A DNA stretch of 47,065 nucleotides, from IMG/VR virus record IMGVR_UViG_3300042691_025774, positions 1 through 47,065 of that record, one strand, 5' to 3'. Position 1 is the stretch's first letter. Every line of letters begins with the position of its first letter. Below, piece by piece: positions 27,341 through 37,851 of the stretch. Under the pieces are notes generated by a model. The model was not told where the DNA came from and made no database searches. It was given only the letters and a program-made list of their open reading frames with translations. The translations under genes and the position numbers were made by a program. The DNA is from a virus.

Positions 27341-30300
27341 TTACCCTCTAAATTCTTTTTTGAAATTGAACTCATCATCAGGTATTGATGTACTTTGCCA
27401 TAATTTCAAAAGTTTATTACCATCTGTTTGGTTTAATGGTTCCTGTTTTTTATATGATACTTTTCTTTCTTTATTTTTCAAGTCAGATTGATAATTAGTT
27501 TTTACTTTTTTGTAGAAATCACTATTATCTACAATTTCAAAAAAGTTATTAACAGTATTTTTTGATTCAATATATCTAGTTTGTAGGGATTTTATACCTA
27601 TGTTTTGTAACCCACTACTCCCAATAATAACAAAATTAAAAAAATCGTCCCATTTAGATCTATCGTCTGAAGTTTCAACAGCCGAATTAAGTTCATCTAA
27701 TATTTTACCGGTGTCGTCCAAAATTTCTTTACCAAATATCATAAAAAATCTATTTTCACTAGGTAAATAGTTCTCATCTTGAATGTTTAAATAAAGATCA
27801 AAAGTATAATCTTCATTATATGAAGTTACACCGTCAGGTGGTATTATTACAAACATTACATCATAAAAAGTTTGTATGTCATTTGCAATTTTTGCATAAT
27901 CACCCTTATATTCATCAAAAGTATTTGCATATGTTCCATCAACAACACCCGTAGTTTGTCCTGATAGTTCATATATAATTGGTGTATTTTTTTTATTTTT
28001 ATAACCGTCTCTTGCCCCTGAAACAAAATTAAGTTTATCAATTAAATTAACTAATTTTAATTCAGAATTTAATGATTGTTCATATGATTTTTTAATATTT
28101 AAAGTATAACCATCCTTTCTATTATCAATCATTTCTTTTATTTTCTTCTTAACATCTCTTATATCAGCATTTTTAAAATTTTGATCAAATACACCATATA
28201 GTAATGGGCATTTATCATTATCAACATCTTCTTTTGTCTTTGTAAATAAATCATCAACCTTTTGTTGTATACCAACAGGATACCCAAAGATCCTACCATT
28301 TGTTGATCCGGTAGTTATTATTTCCCCTTCTCTATATTTCACATCGGCACTAGATAAAACTATTCCACCATATAAAAAGTCCTCATTAACCTTTTTCAAA
28401 GCATCAAAAGTGGAGTTAAAATATTGTTCAACATTTCCAACTAATTCATTAAACACTGTTTTATATTCTATATCACCAGTGATTGTATTACCCGTTGGGT
28501 CAACCACTTGTGTTAATATTGTACCAATAGTTGTTTGCCCATTATTTTCGTCAGGTCTTGTTAAATCAGTAAGTATACCTAAAGAATCTTGTGCGATGTC
28601 AATTAATTCTGCTGTTAATTTTTTATCTACGGGTTCTGTTTCTTCAGCCCTTTCATCATAAACTTCAGTATTTGCATAATAGTTAAAAGAAAGTGCGTTT
28701 TGTAATTGTTCTATTGGTTGTTTTAATCCTTGTCCACCAATAAAATTAAAATTTAATGAAACATCAGCAATCATTGGTTGAACACCAATTCCCTCAGGAT
28801 TTAAATCAAATGGAACTTCATCATATTTTAGAGTTAAACTATCTATTATTACTTTGGTATGGAAAAAGTCCCCAATTCTTAATACACAAACAGGTGGTGC
28901 ACCAAACGCGGTGTTAAATGCATCTCCATAAACTAGTGTCGTTTGATTATTGTTTTTTTGAACTGCAGGTATAGTATCTCCAGGTCTCATACATTGTTGT
29001 AAAAACGTTAACCTTGAGTTTAACCCTTCAGGAGTAATGGAGTGAAATGCAGGATCAAAATGTCTTATTTTTTGTTTTATTCCATCGTAGATCATAGGTT
29101 CGTTTTCCTTAATCATTTCAAAATAATCCGATTCTGTAAGCAATTTTCGTAACAACCTTTTAACTATATCTTGTCTAGGTTGAGGTCTACTAGTGCTACT
29201 ACTTGACTGTGGTTGTCCGTTTGTTGCCGTTGGAGTTTGAGTTACAGGTGCGTTTTCTTCAGCAGCATTAGGTGAAGGAGCAACACTTGACGTATCTGTT
29301 TGAGTAGTGTTTGTTGAATTACTGTTAGGGTTTTCAATTTCTTTTATTACAATATTGGTCACTTGAACAGTTCTACAAGCCATAGCATTTACTGAATATA
29401 TTCCTGTTTGTTCGTTTGCATTATTACCTTTAAATTGTTTGTCACAATCGATTTTATTGTAATTTTTTTCACTAACATTTAAAGTTATAGCATCCCCTGC
29501 ACTTTTATCTACTATTTTTAATATCTTTTTATCGTTAATATATTTTTTTAAATCAACATCCGTTTCTAACCATTTCTTAATAGACTCAACTCTTCTTTTA
29601 CCTAATGTCTTATTTGCTGATTTACTACCCGTTGCAGATGCGCCGCCTGTAAGTTCTAAAGTTAATTCACTATTTCCTTGACTTAAAAACTCCTTAATGT
29701 TTATTTTTAATTCATTAAATTTGTCATAGTTAGAAACTATAAAACTTTTAAAATCACTAATACCGTTTTTAGTTGCATCAATATAGTTAACAAAAAAATC
29801 AACATCACCCTTATCGGCAGTAGTATCGTCTTGGTAATTTTCATTGTCGTAGTTCACAATAATGTTTTTCGCCTTAAAAGGATAATCACCATCAATTACA
29901 TTTAAATATGTATTATATAATGTATTATACTCAGTATCGTCTTCACCGCCAGGGACACTATCTTCAAAATACAACGCAACTTTATTAATATACTCCCCAA
30001 AATCTTTTGTGGTACCCCCACCTCCGACAGAGGATGATGACGTTTGAGTAGTGTTTGTTGGTGGTAGTTCAGATATTGCTTGATTAAACGTGTCGGTATT
30101 TTTTGTACTTAATATCACATCATAAACATCACTAATTGAAAACTGTGCATATTTTTTTAACAATTCATAAATGTCATATTTTAAACATCCCGCAAAAAAT
30201 GAATCTACAATTTTTGTTAATTTAGATTCTGGAGATGTTTTTGCTAACTCTTTATTCACAATAAGATTTAAAGTAGATGGATGATCTACCAAAATTTTCC

Positions 30301-33300
30301 AACTTAAACTTCCCGATCTAGATGTGTTACTATAGGTGTAGACAGGTTCAGTCCTACCTAAAAAAGTATGGTCAGTCCATTGAGTTTTAACACTTTCATC
30401 AAATGTTAAGTCGTACGGTGGGAACCACATTATCCTTCCACCATTAGGACCTATTTCACATGCCGGTAAATCTTCTACGGTAAAACCAGGTCTATTAGAT
30501 GAACGCCAAGCAAGGTTTTCTAAAGAAAACATATATTTTTTAACTCTTTTGTTTGTTTCATCTAAACTTGTTGAATCATTACCTTTCATTGGTGCAATAT
30601 TCAAGTTGTAAGTATTACTTAATACTGAGTTTTGAAATTTACGTATATTACCATCTGTTTTTTGTAGATCACTATAAAGGTAGTAAGGATTGTCTTTTGT
30701 AAAAACTCGACAATACTCATACCCAACCACTCCATTTTGATCCGTTGACCCCACCGAATTTGGTGTTGTATATCTAATAACTCTAGAACCTTTTGTTAAT
30801 TCTATATTTCCATCGTTAAAAACTTTACTAACTTGACTTATAGCATTTCCTACGTGTCTTTGTTTAAATATACCTTTAGCCTGTTCACCTTTCAGTACTA
30901 ATTGATTTGTAACATCTAATATTGAATCTGGTCTAAAACTATTAAAATCCCCAGCTAATGTACTTTGTAATCCAAGATTAAATGCCGGTCCTTGATCTGT
31001 TTCACCAAATACTTCGTTATTGTACCCAATTTTTTTATTAATAGTTCCACTATTTGAAGATCCCCAAGTAAACCCTCCAAAAATGGTTCCAGTGTCAGTA
31101 CCATTAGGATTATTTGCCCCGTCATAGTAACCTCTAGTTGTTAAACCAAAGAAGAATCTCTCACCAACACTTTGACCCTTATATGTCTCATAGTCAGCAC
31201 CTAATCCTCCGTGTCCAAAAACCGCAGCCTCTGTGTTATCACCATATCTATTTAATGGCTGTTGATCTATTGGTGTTATACTCTTTAAGAAAGTTTTTCT
31301 ATCCCCAACATAAAAAGATGGTTTTGGTGCCAAAAGATTTGGGTCTCTTAATGAGTTTAGTCTATAATCAGGTCTATATGAGTTATATGATAATTGCTGA
31401 AATAAAAGATCACTAGTTGCGTTAGAAGTGTTTGCTAAAAATAATTCAGACCCACTTTCAATATTTAAACTGGTTATTTTATTTATTGTCCCTAATGCCG
31501 ATCCCACAACAGCAGCTATTGGATTTTCCAATAACTGATTGACGAGTCGTTTTTTAGGATAATCAAAATATTCTCCAGGTATATAAGAATAAGGGGAATA
31601 AAGACCCGCAAGTTTTGCGGCAAAATTAATTCCCTGACCTAATAATAAATCGGGACTTGTAACTGAATAGTCTCTTGCCAATAATGGAATATTTCCTGAA
31701 ATTATACCGATAGCATTAAAAGGATCGGTATTTGGTTTTGCTGATATGTTTCCAGTATCAGTATTTATTGACGTATTAAAGGCGTTAACCCTACTTACGG
31801 TTTGTTGTAATAGTTCTAACGCAACTCTTGCTTTAAATTCTGTTTGTAATTTTTCAGCACCTAATTGAGCCAAACTTGAATCATTAGCAAGTGTACCATC
31901 ACTTCCTTGTGGATCGTTTTGAAGTAAAATATCATAAGGTGTATACTGAGAAGGAACAAATATAAATGTGGTGTTACTATCTGCGTAAGGTAAAAATGTT
32001 CTTTCTATTAGACTAGTAACATCCGTTATTGTTACTTCTTCATAATTACCATCACCATTTACATACTTATTATCACCATATGCTTCATTTTGTGATTGTT
32101 GTGAAGATAAAGATGGTGGAGACAAAGCGTAATCATATTGTCCTTGATTTGAGGTGGTTTGTAAATTTGAATTAATTATTGTGTTAATTTCATTTCCGTA
32201 CCCATTATCACTTTCAGGACCATATTCATTTGCAACATACAATTCATTTCTAATCTGATCGTTTGTTTTTGTTACGGTCATAGTTAATGGACCGTATTCA
32301 CCCTGATTAGAATTTGATATTAAATCAGTATATATGGTAGCATTAATTTGATTACCATAACCATTATCATCTTCAGGTCCAAACTCATTAACAACGTACA
32401 TATCATTTCTTGACTGATCCGCAGTTTTTGTAACGGTCAACGTTAAAGGTCCGTACTCCCCTTGATTGGATGAGGTTTGTAAGTTAGAATCTAATATACC
32501 ATTTATTTGATCTCCATAACCATTTGAACCATCAGGACCATATTCATTTAATACATAAAATATATTTCTTGATTGTTCAGTACTTCTTTGTAATGACCAA
32601 ATAATAGGTCCGTACTCACCATTATTAGATGTAGACTGTGAATTTTGGTTTATATTAACAGTATCACCATAACTCGTACTATTTGCAGGTCCATATGTGT
32701 TATTAGTATAAAGTATGACTTCTTGGAAATTTCCAATAGTTTCTAATTTAGATCCAATAGAGTCCGACACATCGTATTCACCTACGTTTGATGTTGATTG
32801 TAAATTTTGATTTATATCAACCGTATTACCATAACTATTAGTTCCTTGAGGACCATATAAGTTATTGGTGTATAATATCACCTCCTGTTGATTTCCTGCC
32901 AGTTCTAGCCTACTACCAATAGTATCTGTTATATCATATTCACCAATATTCGTATTAGTTTGAAAATTTTGATTAATATTTACGGTATCCCCATAACTTG
33001 TTTGGTTTTGTGGACCATATAAGTTATTCACATAAAGTAATGTTTCTTGGTTTTCCCCTTGAAGTTCTAATTTAGATCCTATAGATTTTGAAAAATCATA
33101 CACACCCTGATTTGTTTGGGTGTTTAAATTTAAATTAATGTTTACGATATTCCCATAAACCTCATCACCGTTAGTTGGACCATATTGGTTTTTATTATAA
33201 AGAATTTCTTCTTGGGTTTGACTAATAACGTCAATAGACGGTGAATCAATGACCGAATAATCAATTAGTGTGATATCACTAATGCCAGGTATGTCGGTTG

Positions 33301-33397
33301 ATGTAAACGATTGATTTACGTTATATGGTTTTAAGTTTCTAACCAATAACTTTTTTCTAAAATTCTCAGAAGAGTCAAATGATAATGGGCTTTCCAT
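27341..33397 (-). CDS. Giant tail/baseplate protein with seven N-terminal repeats and OmpA-like domain, 2018 aa
   Basis: Layout: unique N-terminus (1-65); seven ~53-aa repeats each with an (E/L/Q)YGP and later Y-G-(D/N)-x-(V/I)-N motif (66-421); a large structural region (430-1130) including a segment with R-I-M-W-F-P-P-Y-D-L and W-K-I-L-V-D-H-P; an OmpA-like fold (about 1140-1345; G-G-A-S-A-T-G, then N-K-T-L-G-K-R-R-V-E-S-I-K-K-W-L, and R-T-V-Q-V); a Ser/Thr/Pro/Gln-rich linker (about 1356-1409); and a C-terminal region with L-R-I-G-D-F-F-H-T-K-V-I-I-D-S-L. The OmpA-like part could contact peptidoglycan or be structural. A CTATTTATA box is 17 nt upstream of the ATG. Confidence 0.65.
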   Translation of the reverse strand: MESPLSFDSSENFRKKLLVRNLKPYNVNQSFTSTDIPGISDITLIDYSVIDSPSIDVISQTQEEILYNKNQYGPTNGDEVYGNIVNINLNLNTQTNQGVYDFSKSIGSKLELQGENQETLLYVNNLYGPQNQTSYGDTVNINQNFQTNTNIGEYDITDTIGSRLELAGNQQEVILYTNNLYGPQGTNSYGNTVDINQNLQSTSNVGEYDVSDSIGSKLETIGNFQEVILYTNNTYGPANSTSYGDTVNINQNSQSTSNNGEYGPIIWSLQRSTEQSRNIFYVLNEYGPDGSNGYGDQINGILDSNLQTSSNQGEYGPLTLTVTKTADQSRNDMYVVNEFGPEDDNGYGNQINATIYTDLISNSNQGEYGPLTMTVTKTNDQIRNELYVANEYGPESDNGYGNEINTIINSNLQTTSNQGQYDYALSPPSLSSQQSQNEAYGDNKYVNGDGNYEEVTITDVTSLIERTFLPYADSNTTFIFVPSQYTPYDILLQNDPQGSDGTLANDSSLAQLGAEKLQTEFKARVALELLQQTVSRVNAFNTSINTDTGNISAKPNTDPFNAIGIISGNIPLLARDYSVTSPDLLLGQGINFAAKLAGLYSPYSYIPGEYFDYPKKRLVNQLLENPIAAVVGSALGTINKITSLNIESGSELFLANTSNATSDLLFQQLSYNSYRPDYRLNSLRDPNLLAPKPSFYVGDRKTFLKSITPIDQQPLNRYGDNTEAAVFGHGGLGADYETYKGQSVGERFFFGLTTRGYYDGANNPNGTDTGTIFGGFTWGSSNSGTINKKIGYNNEVFGETDQGPAFNLGLQSTLAGDFNSFRPDSILDVTNQLVLKGEQAKGIFKQRHVGNAISQVSKVFNDGNIELTKGSRVIRYTTPNSVGSTDQNGVVGYEYCRVFTKDNPYYLYSDLQKTDGNIRKFQNSVLSNTYNLNIAPMKGNDSTSLDETNKRVKKYMFSLENLAWRSSNRPGFTVEDLPACEIGPNGGRIMWFPPYDLTFDESVKTQWTDHTFLGRTEPVYTYSNTSRSGSLSWKILVDHPSTLNLIVNKELAKTSPESKLTKIVDSFFAGCLKYDIYELLKKYAQFSISDVYDVILSTKNTDTFNQAISELPPTNTTQTSSSSVGGGGTTKDFGEYINKVALYFEDSVPGGEDDTEYNTLYNTYLNVIDGDYPFKAKNIIVNYDNENYQDDTTADKGDVDFFVNYIDATKNGISDFKSFIVSNYDKFNELKINIKEFLSQGNSELTLELTGGASATGSKSANKTLGKRRVESIKKWLETDVDLKKYINDKKILKIVDKSAGDAITLNVSEKNYNKIDCDKQFKGNNANEQTGIYSVNAMACRTVQVTNIVIKEIENPNSNSTNTTQTDTSSVAPSPNAAEENAPVTQTPTATNGQPQSSSSTSRPQPRQDIVKRLLRKLLTESDYFEMIKENEPMIYDGIKQKIRHFDPAFHSITPEGLNSRLTFLQQCMRPGDTIPAVQKNNNQTTLVYGDAFNTAFGAPPVCVLRIGDFFHTKVIIDSLTLKYDEVPFDLNPEGIGVQPMIADVSLNFNFIGGQGLKQPIEQLQNALSFNYYANTEVYDERAEETEPVDKKLTAELIDIAQDSLGILTDLTRPDENNGQTTIGTILTQVVDPTGNTITGDIEYKTVFNELVGNVEQYFNSTFDALKKVNEDFLYGGIVLSSADVKYREGEIITTGSTNGRIFGYPVGIQQKVDDLFTKTKEDVDNDKCPLLYGVFDQNFKNADIRDVKKKIKEMIDNRKDGYTLNIKKSYEQSLNSELKLVNLIDKLNFVSGARDGYKNKKNTPIIYELSGQTTGVVDGTYANTFDEYKGDYAKIANDIQTFYDVMFVIIPPDGVTSYNEDYTFDLYLNIQDENYLPSENRFFMIFGKEILDDTGKILDELNSAVETSDDRSKWDDFFNFVIIGSSGLQNIGIKSLQTRYIESKNTVNNFFEIVDNSDFYKKVKTNYQSDLKNKERKVSYKKQEPLNQTDGNKLLKLWQSTSIPDDEFNFKKEFRG
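32135..33202 (-). repeat. Seven coding repeats of about 53 aa (YGP repeats)
   Basis: YGP or FGP motifs occur at residues 72, 127, 181, 235, 286, 339 and 392 of the 2018-aa protein, spacing 51-55. Each unit also has Y-G-(N/D)-x-(V/I)-(N/D)-I followed by N-L/Q-x-T-(S/N)-x-x-G-x-Y-(D/G). Units 1-4 and units 5-7 form two subtypes (the latter share E-Y-G-P-L/I followed by T-K/Q-x-x-x-Q-x-R-N). The pattern fits growth by in-frame duplication. Confidence 0.85.
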
Positions 33398-33437: not shown

Positions 33438-35363
33438 TTATTTAAGTTTAAAATTTAAAACTCCTTGTTTTTTCATTTCATCACTTAATTGATACATAAC
33501 TTTCATCATTTCATTTTTCAACATTGTTGGGTCTAATGAATTTGGTACTTTTGATGCATCTATGGTTATAGTGAATCCTCCTGATAAATTTTGTGTATTT
33601 GTAGTGTTAATATTAGTATTTGTAGTACTATTTGTCATTACTTCAGAAAGTTTTGTTGGTTTTTCACCTAAAGTATTTTGTAGTGTTGCACTTGTCATAT
33701 TTTTAAATGGATCTCCATATTCCTTTAATAACGATTCCGTCATTGGCCGTGATCCCCTTATTTCTTCTCTTGACATTTCAAAAGTTTTATCTAAATCGGG
33801 ACCAACCGCCACTTGATCTCCCACTATACCTTCATAAATTTTACCTTCAGACATAATTTTTGGAGCACTACCTGATCCAGGAAAAAATCCATCTTCTATT
33901 TTAACAATGGGGTTATTAAAAATTGCTCTTTGTAATAAAGCTATTATATTACCCATATCTTTTTCTAAATTACCATTATTAATATATTCACTAACTTTAG
34001 TCTGTGCCGTTTTTAAATACTCTAACACATCATTTACCGGTAATTTATCTTCAATTTTAGTTATAACATTTTTAGTTGCTTCCGCAAGTTTTGTCAGCGT
34101 TTCAACAGAACTTTTTCCTTGTTCAGGCGTAGCCTTTAAAATCAAAGCATCTCTAATTTGTATTAATGTATTATTTTGTCTTTCGGCGGAACTTAAAAAT
34201 TTCTCATTAAACGCATTTTGATTACCATCAGGTAAAGGCGTTTCTCCTTCTTGAGTCTTTTTTTTAAGTTCTTCAATTTGTTTTGAAGTTATTTCTGATG
34301 TTTTAACCCAATTATCAGTACCAGGAAGTTTAACTTCATATTTACCTTCCTTACCCATTGTCGATAATGATGCAACAAACTCCTTATCTTCTTCACTAAT
34401 ATTACCAGCCCATTTAGTTTTCCCAAGCGCATCCATTTTTTTAGCAGATTGTGTTGCGATACTAGCCAAATCTTCCACACTTTCACCCGTTTTTTCAGCA
34501 AGTATTCTTAACGCTTTCTGTCCTTCTCTAGAAATTTTAAATTCACCATTTTCGTCAAGTTCGGCAAAAGATGACGCAGATTTTGTAAGTTTTTCTCTTA
34601 ATTCTTCAACACTAGCACCCATATTTGAAAATGGGTCCCCAAATTGAGCGGCAAATTCTCCACCTAACATTTGCATTTCACTAGCAAATTCAATTGCATT
34701 ATCAGGATTCATAAAGTCATCATATAATTTAAAAGCAGATTCTATACCAACACCCAAACTTTGAGCCTTTGCAGCCATCTTTGTTAGTCCTTCAACACCA
34801 TCTTTAAATGTATATGCCGATGACTTTTTCACGTTTTCTTGAACTACTTTAGTGAGTTGTCCAGCGTTAACTCCATATTTTCTTGCAGATTCCCCAATAG
34901 TTCTAATCATTTTAACTGCAGCTAATTGAGATAATCCAATTTTATTAAACTCTCCCGCCATTTGAGCGACTTCCTTTGTTGATATTCCAAATTCTTTAGA
35001 AATTTTAATAGCGTTTACTATTACCTCATCCTGTATTGCAGGAACCTTTCCTGTTTGTGTAGCAAAGGCTTCTGCATAATCAATAACATCTTTTGTTGAA
35101 CCTCCGATTTTAACAGTTTGTTTATAAACATTCATCATAGATTTTTCTAATGATTGTGAATACCCCGCAATATTAGATGCAAGTGACCTACTTGTTTTAA
35201 CTGCCTGATCTTCTAATTCAGTAAAAAATGATTGGAAATAACCAATATCTAATGATGATTTTACGGCATTTTTAAACCCTTCAAGATATTTTTCATAACC
35301 AAAATTTTCTGTTCCGGAACCGGCATATCCCGCTTCAGGAGTTTCATCAGCAAATAATAACAT
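33438..35363 (-). CDS. Tape measure protein-like, 641 aa
   Basis: Sets tail length and fills the tube lumen. The sequence is almost wholly helical and Ala/Lys/Glu/Ser-rich. The region from about 60 to 300 has the pattern found in tape measure proteins of T4-like phages (A-E-A-F-A-T-Q-T-G-K-V, K-I-S-K-E-F-G-I-S-T-K-E-V-A-Q-M-A-G-E-F, M-L-G-G-E-F-A-A-Q-F-G-D-P-F). A Thr/Asn-rich stretch precedes a short beta/helical C-terminus. Length compares with 590 aa for T4 gp29. It lies directly downstream of the gp26-like gene and the overlapping chaperone candidate, the usual gene order for tape measures. Confidence 0.7.
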   Translation of the reverse strand: MLLFADETPEAGYAGSGTENFGYEKYLEGFKNAVKSSLDIGYFQSFFTELEDQAVKTSRSLASNIAGYSQSLEKSMMNVYKQTVKIGGSTKDVIDYAEAFATQTGKVPAIQDEVIVNAIKISKEFGISTKEVAQMAGEFNKIGLSQLAAVKMIRTIGESARKYGVNAGQLTKVVQENVKKSSAYTFKDGVEGLTKMAAKAQSLGVGIESAFKLYDDFMNPDNAIEFASEMQMLGGEFAAQFGDPFSNMGASVEELREKLTKSASSFAELDENGEFKISREGQKALRILAEKTGESVEDLASIATQSAKKMDALGKTKWAGNISEEDKEFVASLSTMGKEGKYEVKLPGTDNWVKTSEITSKQIEELKKKTQEGETPLPDGNQNAFNEKFLSSAERQNNTLIQIRDALILKATPEQGKSSVETLTKLAEATKNVITKIEDKLPVNDVLEYLKTAQTKVSEYINNGNLEKDMGNIIALLQRAIFNNPIVKIEDGFFPGSGSAPKIMSEGKIYEGIVGDQVAVGPDLDKTFEMSREEIRGSRPMTESLLKEYGDPFKNMTSATLQNTLGEKPTKLSEVMTNSTTNTNINTTNTQNLSGGFTITIDASKVPNSLDPTMLKNEMMKVMYQLSDEMKKQGVLNFKLK

Positions 35364-35401: not shown

Positions 35402-35575
35402 TTAAGAATTTTCTTCTATTAGTTTGTTAACGAAATATTTTCTCTCATAGGTCGGTATACGTAAGATATCAAAATATGAAAAATTTGCATATTTTGATAA
35501 ATAATAAATTTCGTCTAATAGATTTTTTTTGTAATTAGAAGAAAGGACGAAAAAATTCAGCCCCAAAAGCAACAT
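35402..35575 (-). CDS. Candidate tail-assembly chaperone ORF overlapping gp26-like gene, 57 aa
   Basis: A short frame overlaps the last 41 bases of the gp26-like gene and continues 130 bases beyond it to a TAA at 35402-35404. After the overlap it reads L-L-D-E-I-Y-Y-L-S-K-Y-A-N-F-S-Y-F-D-I-L, then I-P-T-Y-E-R-K-Y-F-V-N-K-L-I-E-E-N. This is the E-I-x-x-L-a-x-x-x-x-x-s-y-x-d-(i/v)-l-x-(m/i)-p-x-x-E-R-x-x-F pattern common in the C-terminal part of phage tail-assembly chaperones (lambda G-T type). It lies just before the tape measure. It could be made by re-initiation at the internal ATG 35573-35575 (AGGAG about 15 nt upstream), or as a gp26-fusion by a -2 or +1 frameshift; the gp26 frame carries a T6 run (GAA TTT TTT) in the overlap. 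Confidence 0.7.
   Translation of the reverse strand: MLLLGLNFFVLSSNYKKNLLDEIYYLSKYANFSYFDILRIPTYERKYFVNKLIEENS
35468..35498 (-). repeat. Perfect 11-bp inverted repeat inside the 57-aa ORF
   Basis: Arms ATCAAAATATG (35468-35478) and CATATTTTGAT (35488-35498) are exact reverse complements around a 9-nt loop. The stem is AT-rich. It lies roughly 40 nt after the gp26-like stop on the transcript. Confidence 0.6.
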
Positions 35576-36287
35576 CAATAGTTACTTTTTCTCCTGACGG
35601 GGCTATAATAGTTCTTTCTAAATCCAATTTAGGTTCGCATTTTGACATGGTATTTCTTATGTGTTTTGAATCTGCAATCGGCATTTGATACACAAATCTT
35701 ACAATTTTTTCTCTATCCCTATCCCCATCTAATTCTATAATTTGTTTCTCCAATCTTTTTGTTACAACAGGTACTGTCATATTTGGTGGATATGATTCTC
35801 TTAATTTGTCTAACTCTTTTTGGTCACCTAAATTTAAAATCCTACATTTAACAACAGATCCACTTTTTGGTAAGTTAATAGTAAACAACCCGTCTTCACT
35901 TGGTTCCAATTCAGGTTTAATATAATTTAACTCATCTAAAAGAATTGTTTGTTCAAAATCCCTACTTGTTGCAGGATCTTTAATTTTAAAGATATAATCA
36001 GACCCAAAAGAAGTGTTTCTTAAAAAGATAAGAATTGCTTGAACATCAACATCAATTAATTGGTTTATGTCAAATCCAGGTTCATAAATTTTATTTCTTA
36101 AAAGTGTATTTATCAGTCCGTCTTTTGTTTGATTTGGAGATAACAACACGTTTTCATCCTCCGCAGTTAAATACCCAACCTTTATTGATTCTTTTTTTTG
36201 TGTATAAAACTTACCTTTTGATGGTAACGAAACCACGTCGTGTGGTAATGAAAACATTTCTTGTCCATAAATTGATGCGTCGCTCAT
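35535..36287 (-). CDS. gp26-like baseplate hub assembly protein, 250 aa
   Basis: The N-terminal part (V-V-S-L-P-S-K-G-K-F-Y at about 18-28, then V-G-Y-L-T-A-E-D-E-N-V-L-L-S-P and L-L-R-N-K-I-Y-E-P-G-F-D-I-N-Q-L) matches the pattern of T4 gp26-type proteins (T4 baseplate family). In T4, gp26 is needed for hub assembly but has not been found in solved baseplates, so an assembly-chaperone role is plausible. The C-terminus ends A-E-F-F-R-P-F-F. It lies between tail tube and tape measure, and its 3' end overlaps the 57-aa chaperone candidate in another frame. Confidence 0.7.
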   Translation of the reverse strand: MSDASIYGQEMFSLPHDVVSLPSKGKFYTQKKESIKVGYLTAEDENVLLSPNQTKDGLINTLLRNKIYEPGFDINQLIDVDVQAILIFLRNTSFGSDYIFKIKDPATSRDFEQTILLDELNYIKPELEPSEDGLFTINLPKSGSVVKCRILNLGDQKELDKLRESYPPNMTVPVVTKRLEKQIIELDGDRDREKIVRFVYQMPIADSKHIRNTMSKCEPKLDLERTIIAPSGEKVTIDVAFGAEFFRPFF

Positions 36288-36378: not shown

Positions 36379-36867
36379 TTAGTACACCAAAATACATCTA
36401 TCAGGTCTAAGCGTAGCCTTAACGGTAACTAACTTATCTGAGTCATAACTTAAAGAGTCAAAATCAACACCTGTTAAAAATGTACCAATAAGTAACCACT
36501 TTTCAACCGCAACACCTGTTGGGTCTAACATTTCAAGTGTGATGTCTTTTTTGTATCCTGCCGCATAACCCATACGACCTGTAACAGATTCAGCATGTAA
36601 ACGAACCCATTCCATAAGTGCTTGTGAAGCAGAAGGTCCGATTGGATCACGAAAAGTAACATCCATAGGTTCCCAATTGAATTTACCTGCAACATACGTT
36701 TCAGTATTTAAAAACGGAATCGGAACCTCATTAATTTTAATTTTAGGTCTAGTTGTTGATTCAACATACCAAGAGTTAATCCCAAGTGAATTTGGGAAAG
36801 AAAGTATAAACCTGTTTTGTCTTTTAGGTTCGTACTGTAAAGGCATTTTCATTAATAAGTCAGCCAT
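36379..36867 (-). CDS. Tail tube protein, gp19-like
   Basis: Forms the inner tube of the contractile tail. The protein begins MADLLMKMPLQYEPKRQNRF, then I-L-S-F-P-N, V-E-S-T-T-R-P-K-I, T-Y-V-A-G-K-F-N-W-E-P-M-D-V-T-F-R-D-P-I-G-P-S, and E-W-V-R-L-H, L-E-M-L-D-P-T-G-V-A-V-E-K-W-L-L-I-G-T-F, which is the pattern of T4 gp19 and related tube proteins. Length 162 aa matches T4 gp19 (163 aa). It has its own TATTTATA box and a strong terminator, as expected for a very abundant virion protein. Confidence 0.9.
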   Translation of the reverse strand: MADLLMKMPLQYEPKRQNRFILSFPNSLGINSWYVESTTRPKIKINEVPIPFLNTETYVAGKFNWEPMDVTFRDPIGPSASQALMEWVRLHAESVTGRMGYAAGYKKDITLEMLDPTGVAVEKWLLIGTFLTGVDFDSLSYDSDKLVTVKATLRPDRCILVY

Positions 36868-36978: not shown

Positions 36979-37851
36979 TTAATTAACTTTTCTTTTTTCT
37001 CCTCCTTTAGTTAAATATATATCTACTGGTTTTTCTGGATATTCTTTTTCTAAAAACCCTGATATCTTTTCTATGTTTCTTGGGTCATCGTCTGAAAACC
37101 CAATTTTTGGTTCTTTATTTAACATATCATTTTTGAATAATCCTTTTACCCCAATCTCATTTGAAAGTTCTTTACAGTATGAAATGAAATGTCTTAAAGC
37201 AATTATTTTCCCTTCTTCGGGATTTGATGCTGAACCACCTCCGAAACCAGGATTTGTAACAGGTGCAAAATAACAAAGTTCTAAATAATCGTCTATAACT
37301 TCTTTATCTGAAAGTCCACTGGCATCTTGATCCATAATTAATGATATATATCTTTTTAAGTTCTCTACACATCTTTTTGAATCAATTCCTTGATGGTTAC
37401 TAATAATAAGGTTATATGTTGCTTCTTTCATTACTTCAGGGGAATGTCCTCTTGCTGTAATTATTGCAAATACGGACCCACCATTTATACATTCCACAAA
37501 ATCTCCCCAAGACGGACCTGTTTTTGCTAACATACAATCAGTTAAAAAGTTTTTATCACCCTCTACTGTAAAATTACGATAAGGATTATTTGCATAACCA
37601 ATAATGGTTTTACCTTTATATTCAAAATTTTCATTACCGATTTGACCTCTATATTCTGCAAAATCTTCTGTACTCATTTTTACCTCTTCATCATTATCGT
37701 CTAAAACAATAATAGTTGTCGGCATAAATAAAATATTGTCGTCCCAGTCAAAAGCATAATATTTTAAATCAGGAACTCCTTCTTCAGAAATACCTTCTTT
37801 AACAATCTTGAATACTTCGTTTCTAATTAGTCTTTTTAAGTTCATAATCAT
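36979..37851 (-). CDS. HAD-superfamily phosphatase-like protein with targeting-like N-terminus, 290 aa
   Basis: HAD motif I is F-D-W-D-D-N-I-L near residues 33-40 (nucleophile and acid Asp), motif II is A-I-I-T-A-R-G near 130, and the metal-binding motif IV is G-F-S-D-D-D-P-R-N near 250, so the catalytic set looks intact. The substrate cannot be read; nucleotide or nucleic-acid end phosphate is possible. The N-terminus, L-K-R-L-I-R-N-E-V-F-K-I-V-K-E-G, is a basic amphipathic helix ending V-K-E/G, similar to those of nearby late proteins and compatible with a cleaved capsid-targeting peptide. Its ATG overlaps the TGA of the 45-aa gene (ATGA). A second Met at codon 3 could also start. Confidence 0.7.
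   Translation of the reverse strand: MIMNLKRLIRNEVFKIVKEGISEEGVPDLKYYAFDWDDNILFMPTTIIVLDDNDEEVKMSTEDFAEYRGQIGNENFEYKGKTIIGYANNPYRNFTVEGDKNFLTDCMLAKTGPSWGDFVECINGGSVFAIITARGHSPEVMKEATYNLIISNHQGIDSKRCVENLKRYISLIMDQDASGLSDKEVIDDYLELCYFAPVTNPGFGGGSASNPEEGKIIALRHFISYCKELSNEIGVKGLFKNDMLNKEPKIGFSDDDPRNIEKISGFLEKEYPEKPVDIYLTKGGEKRKVN

Follow-up and report, generated by a model that had tools for sequence, protein, structure and literature searches.

A short reading frame overlaps the last codons of a gp26-like gene in this viral genome, which raises the question of whether so small a frame encodes protein and, if it does, how ribosomes would enter it. The window, by which we mean the whole stretch of 47,065 nucleotides that was analysed (IMG/VR record IMGVR_UViG_3300042691_025774), carries the gp26-like gene at 35535..36287 and the 57-codon frame at 35402-35575, both on the minus strand. 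A sequence-only reading of this DNA had proposed that the hidden frame is the distal half of a tail-assembly chaperone, fused to the gp26-like protein by recoding, with slippage on a run of six T residues as the proposed route. Below, we examine whether the frame is maintained in relatives, what the site of the putative shift looks like across them, and which of the possible routes into the frame their sequences allow.

A conserved, selected frame overlapping the gp26-like gene

The frame lies where the sequence-only reading had placed it: it shares 41 nt with the gp26-like open reading frame (ORF), its stop precedes the next ORF (33438-35363), and its offset from the gp26-like gene is +1, equal to −2, as had been claimed. 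The proposed beginning of the ORF fared less well. It was taken to start at an ATG (35575; in the ORF listing it is one codon longer, from a TTG at 35578), and this ATG is not conserved, no ATG being present in that stretch in 86 of 136 representatives. The part that a +1 shift would add to the gp26-like protein is a 48-aa extension (35405..35548, minus strand), for which conservation in the +1 frame, dN/dS and a model with three predicted helices point to a counterpart of the T, or TAC-NC-specific, domain.

Relatives were collected by three protein-led scans of viral contigs, from each of which 80 loci were taken, out of 141, at least 599 and at least 447 relatives; together with 8 further loci from named phage records and the window itself, these made 249 loci. 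Two loci (L113 and L192) in which the gp26 stop is absent were dropped, leaving 247, and one (L087), with its extension in the −1 frame, was left out of the +1 tallies, leaving 246 loci and 136 representatives. Some contigs are counted twice in the 246-locus tallies; the full set of 137 representatives, chosen at 90% gp26 identity and sharing less than that with one another, is free of duplicates. The sets of fusion sequences hold 132 of these 137, without L087 and those loci where the contig breaks off within the extension.

In the first set of relatives, the +1 frame of all 80 is open across the gp26 stop and its protein sequence is conserved, the extension being ended by the contig end in one of them (L048). 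A profile of the extension found its best match in the +1 frame at 246 of the 247 loci and in the −1 frame at one, L087; the profile derives from the clade to which the window belongs, so that 81 of the 247 loci match by construction. The +1-frame matches had E<0.01 at 239 loci and were weaker at 7, among them SP-15, LIS04, GXN1 and RM378, for the last of which the profile gives no support (E 70). A search of 15 records placed the extension directly behind gp26 in 13 and revealed no second strong copy; with the extension alignment A3, the GXN1 extension was missed. On its own, the 57-aa ORF matched no family in Pfam or PHROGs and nothing in phage records by tblastn.

Past the gp26 stop, differences within 38 disjoint pairs fall at the first, second and third positions of +1-frame codons 402, 250 and 852 times, respectively, and the median dN/dS of the +1 frame is 0.13 over the 128 of 269 pairs with usable dS, these pairs being non-independent. 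The 57-codon +1 frame is real, far beyond chance, and is under purifying selection, which, coupled with its conservation, indicates that it is translated. Conservation of the downstream frame in relatives had been named beforehand as the point on which the sequence-only reading should stand or fall, and the frame is conserved.

The proposed slip site and possible routes into the second frame

In the explanation that we favour, one gene would give rise to two tail-assembly chaperones. Most ribosomes would make the short form, the 250-aa gp26-like protein, and a minority would slip forward by one base, with tRNA-Phe on the second UUU of GAA UUU UUU CGU and the CGU codon waiting. In the window, the two UUU codons are codons 245-246 of the gp26-like gene (35550..35555, minus strand) and form the T6 run (35555-35550, in the context GAA TTT TTT CGT) that the sequence-only reading had pointed out. 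The second UUU (35552-35550) is the proposed P-site codon and CGU (35547..35549, minus strand) the proposed A-site codon, so that a +1 move at UUU_CGU would carry the tRNA from UUU to UUC.

Sites of the window's type follow the pattern TTT GGG GNN GAN TTT TTT CGN CCT TTC. Across the 246 loci the site reads TTT TTT CGN at 158, TTT TTT TGG at 39 and TTT CTT TGG at 35, with TTT CTA TGG (4), TTC TTT CGN (3), TTT TTT CCC (3) and four single types accounting for the rest. UUU followed by a pyrimidine is present at all 246, and tRNA-Phe would thus be able to re-pair in the +1 frame at each of them; UUU-pyrimidine frameshifting in E. coli was reportedly described by Schwartz and Curran. The codon that would slip varies between lineages, those with TTT CTN needing the first Phe codon and those with TTC TTT CGN the second, the only one that can slip +1 there. 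TTT CGN occupies the second and third codons at 161 of 246 loci, namely the 158 with TTT TTT CGN and the three with TTC TTT CGN. Two of these three, L241 and L246, carry TTC TTT CGG and belong to the window's wider clade (both 51% identical to the window gp26), and the third, Streptococcus phage GXN1 (L089), has TTC TTT CGT and so keeps UUU_CGU. The site in the LR756508 genome is TTT CTA TTC, and that of Listeria phage LIS04 is TTT TTT AGT, where +1 re-pairing is possible only at the first UUU and −2 re-pairing is also allowed.

Codon choice around the site was compared with the background in these genes. The first Phe codon is TTT in 135 of 137 representatives, against a background of 81%. 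Where Arg follows the two Phe codons, it is encoded by CGN in 96 of 96 representatives and by AGA or AGG in none, whereas AGA makes up 74% of the 1179 Arg codons in these genes; CGG, at 0.6% of their Arg codons, stands at the site in 41 of 137 representatives. The overlapping +1 codons put a constraint of their own on CGN and CCT, whose conservation therefore does not prove a signal. Part of the CGN preference follows from the C behind UUU together with GNC CTT in the +1 frame, so it cannot be put down to a hungry-codon signal alone. Three codons before the first Phe, GGG accounts for 113 of 128 Gly codons (137 representatives) versus 10.8% in the background, a preference for which no coding reason was seen in either frame. 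The GGGG that results (35561..35564 in the window, minus strand) is a possible stimulator of the shift, and a Shine-Dalgarno role was considered for it; in F. johnsoniae, shifting at the prfB motif is described as poor and Shine-Dalgarno sequences as rarely used (PMC12421855). A stimulatory RNA structure 3' of the site was not found in the first 60 of 128 loci when compared with plain shuffles (mean z −0.6, with z below −2 at 7 of the 60).

The site can also be approached without the proteins. Scanned alone over viral contigs, the 20-base motif GARTTTTTTCGNCCTTTCTT returned at least 120 loci, and all 120 of the matches listed have a gp26-like protein in frame upstream and a +1-frame extension downstream, as judged with profiles derived partly from the same clades. 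Of these listed sites, 55 are new, i.e. not among the protein-found loci. A genome scan with three gp26 proteins added one relative outside the 246-locus set, L259, on an Erysipelotrichaceae MAG contig, with TTT TTT CGT and an open +1 frame.

The same fusion could arise if tRNA-Phe slipped by −2 on the T6 run, the direction known from phage Mu and the one to which the sequence-only reading had pointed. A T6 run on which full re-pairing is possible occurs at 202 of 246 loci, and at these, the window included, −2 is compatible with the sequence alongside +1. However, the 44 loci without T6 (23 of 136 representatives) disfavour it, because their sites, TTC TTT CGG/CGT or TTT CTT/CTA among them, re-pair at +1 and not at −2, and TTC TTT CGG is found even within the window's own wider clade; +1 at UUU_Y, on the other hand, is possible in all 246. 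We consider −2 slippage unlikely and infer a +1 shift at every locus with its extension in the +1 frame, T6 lineages included, the occurrence of the shift and its efficiency being inferences as well. Slippage of RNA polymerase on the T run, yielding mRNAs in the other frame, would draw on the same 202 T6 loci. The longest T run at sites of the TTC TTT C or TTT CTN type is three, yet loci with such sites display the same frame arrangement, which makes this route highly improbable.

A different kind of alternative, raised in the form of re-initiation by the sequence-only reading too, is that ribosomes start anew at an ATG or TTG inside gp26, by re-initiation or internal initiation, and make the 57-aa frame into a protein of its own. 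The window does have such an ATG, TTG occurs in that stretch in 114 of 136 representatives, and the annotation of Mel-JY01 gives a separate ORF. In 15 of the 136 representatives, or 29 loci among the 246, however, ATG, GTG and TTG are all absent from the frame before the gp26 stop, so that re-initiation is no general explanation; in three of the 15 (L173, L221 and L250) the frame opens only 20 nt before this stop. Against it also stands the variability of +1-frame residues just ahead of the Phe-Phe site. We give separate initiation only a small chance. The sites and the frame together make it likely that a single gene provides two chaperones through +1 slippage at UUU_C. The central proposal of the sequence-only reading, a distal chaperone half reached by recoding, is supported by the conserved and selected +1 frame and by the lineages devoid of start codons, in the direction +1 rather than −2.

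The predicted proteins, their neighbours and their annotation

As the putative short form (G / TAC-N), the gp26-like protein was compared with known families and structures. It matches PF12322 (T4_baseplate) with 32.1 bits, above the curated cut-off of 24.5, and phrog_150 (baseplate hub) with E 4.2e-12. Among PDB structures, the HK97 tail assembly chaperone (2ob9) matches its model (pLDDT 86) best, with Z 5.7 over 79 residues at rmsd 3.1, and the next row has Z 2.5; although a Z under 8 may reflect merely a common arrangement, this match is suggestive of a chaperone fold for the short form. In the viral structure library the model matched SP-15 (E 5.5e-18) and, with E 2e-14, a T4-like baseplate hub assembly protein. 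Neither gp26 nor the extension matched any Pfam or PHROG family named tail assembly chaperone.

The gp26-like gene sits between a tail tube gene, its upstream neighbour (36379..36867, minus strand; phrog_4542, E 3.7e-26), and a 641-aa ORF (33438..35363, minus strand) that we take for the tape measure gene by position. No family matched this ORF significantly (lowest E 0.11 in Pfam and 0.048 in PHROGs), and it occupies the position at which the tape measure is annotated in SP-15, LIS04 and immuto. Some other ORFs of the window were inspected by eye. One of 290 aa (36979-37851, minus strand), between the tail tube and sheath genes, has a HAD-like start, and a protein of 2018 aa (27341-33397, minus strand) contains an OmpA-like stretch; Pfam, searched to E 5, gave no match for either. 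A 105-aa ORF beside the 2018-aa protein is weakly like Phage_tail_X.

The model of the extension (pLDDT 91) consists of three helices. Nothing in the viral structure library matched it at E<0.001; of the 50 rows listed there, 4 bear the name of a chaperone for tail assembly or the tape measure (BonaeVitae, RcRhea, Mica and ctNZc11) and are too weak to count as evidence. Its sole PDB row with Z of at least 2, among 8 chains aligned, is an HMG domain (Z 2.3). Five of the 33 members of alignment A3 matched PF20546 (DUF6760) weakly (best E 4.5e-4), with no match for the window extension itself and none in the window record; DUF6760 is a family without known function, and a literature search for it found no paper.

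Five annotated public records, loci L083, L084, L085, L086 and L089 as a set, were examined for their treatment of the extension, which is missing, cut short or given as its own ORF in all of them. Fragments of 39 aa and 36 aa are annotated in SP-15 and immuto, respectively, a separate 78-aa ORF in Mel-JY01, and nothing in LIS04 and GXN1.

Two relatives depart from the common arrangement. In LR756511, a huge-phage relative (L087), the extension lies in the −1 frame (around 3269 and upstream) with T_TTT_TTC at the Phe-Phe site, and the direction of the shift would thus differ within the family. Rhodothermus phage RM378 (L088) has a gp26-like gene with TTT TTT TGG and a +1 frame that is open 67 codons past the stop and partly annotated as gene p030; its tail tube gene is on the other strand.

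Comparison with known chaperone systems

For T4, hub assembly chaperones are said to include gp26 and gp51 (PMC3004832), and both belong to PF12322, as does the window gp26-like protein. To judge by its title, the study of Vladimirov, Gautam and Davidson (2022) identified the tail chaperone genes of T4-like phages, and genes 26 and 51 are presumably those meant. The chaperone role that the sequence-only reading had assigned to the gp26-like protein is supported, and for T4-like relatives it is not new. The two forms are two genes in T4 and, here, one gene with a change of frame; when 15 records were scored for PF12322, two genes came up in T4, a single one in each of 11 records, and none in three. 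T4 gp51 continues for 48 residues past its PF12322 match, the same length as the window extension. When gp26/gp51 tiles were scored with the extension profile, the gp51 C-terminus ranked highest against 12 others, one of them partly overlapping (26.0, a near-identical tile reaching 24.9 and the best other 18.5), its reversal scored 10.9, and 0 of 100 column shuffles attained 26.0. This likeness is weak (P 1e-4): the window-clade profile alone gave the gp51 C-terminus 19.7, hardly more than a second gp51 tile (18.1), it was missed when T4 was searched with a plain HMM of alignment A3, and when profiles of the entire fusion and of gp51 were compared, only an N-terminal stretch matched (P 0.0019). 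Taken with the HK97 match, the shared PF12322 membership is in keeping with a pair of tail-assembly chaperones. The family of gp26 carries the label baseplate hub, an annotation that would have to be corrected to tail-assembly chaperone in this group too.

Lambda G/GT is located between the tail tube and tape measure genes, the same place that the gp26-like gene occupies here. Like lambda G/GT and chaperone frameshifts more widely (PMC5009743), the locus would provide a short form and a C-terminally extended form, and by analogy the shared domain would bind the tape measure protein and the extension would recruit tail tube subunits. The direction differs, being −1 in lambda and +1 at UUU_Y here; the lambda-type −1 shift after X_XXY_YYZ does not describe the window, whose extension is in the +1 frame, and −1 was seen solely at L087 of 247 loci. 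Tailed phages are described as using −1, −2 and +1 for this protein pair (PMC5009743). The −2 shift of phage Mu gpGT results in the same frame offset as here, and its mode of re-pairing is possible on the window T6 and impossible at the 44 loci that lack one. Pseudomonas phage Adele (Vandenendeviridae) likewise has a previously unrecognised chaperone C-terminal part before its tape measure, conserved in many genomes, but reaches it in the −1 direction at a GTTTTT motif (PMC12846349).

Whether these observations extend to PF12322 phages broadly, large and jumbo phages included, we regard as evenly balanced. On this wider view, such phages would make a chaperone pair by +1 slippage at UUU_pyrimidine, mostly UUU_CGN, the Phe-Phe site would have switched to −1 in LR756511, and T4 would have replaced the frameshift by genes 26 and 51. 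If true, the same locus could be served by recoding in one direction or another or by duplicating the gene, each solution being exchangeable for the others.

Both the +1 UUU_Y/UUU_CGN site in this lineage and the variation of direction within one family look new; within the open-licence PubMed Central literature, which covers few subscription journals, we came across no phage chaperone for which UUU_CGN had been described. Plus-one sites within genes are hard to detect and general motifs are scarce, the PRFect paper stating that no general forward motif has been identified so far (PMC10885494). As UUU_Y marks the site at 246 of 246 +1-frame loci with varied surroundings, it is directly testable and can be searched for elsewhere. 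Its counterpart is found outside phages: PA-X of influenza A is produced by a +1 shift at UCC_UUU_CGU, and a class of UUU_C +1 sites preferring CGN has been predicted for other eukaryotic viruses (PMC3498833). The window's UUU_CGU has the features of the PA-X motif, namely UUU_C, a CGN codon in the A site and predicted re-pairing from UUU to UUC (PMC3498833). Unlike PA-X, it would act on bacterial ribosomes, in a DNA phage and in an unrelated gene, and CGG is common at the phage site.
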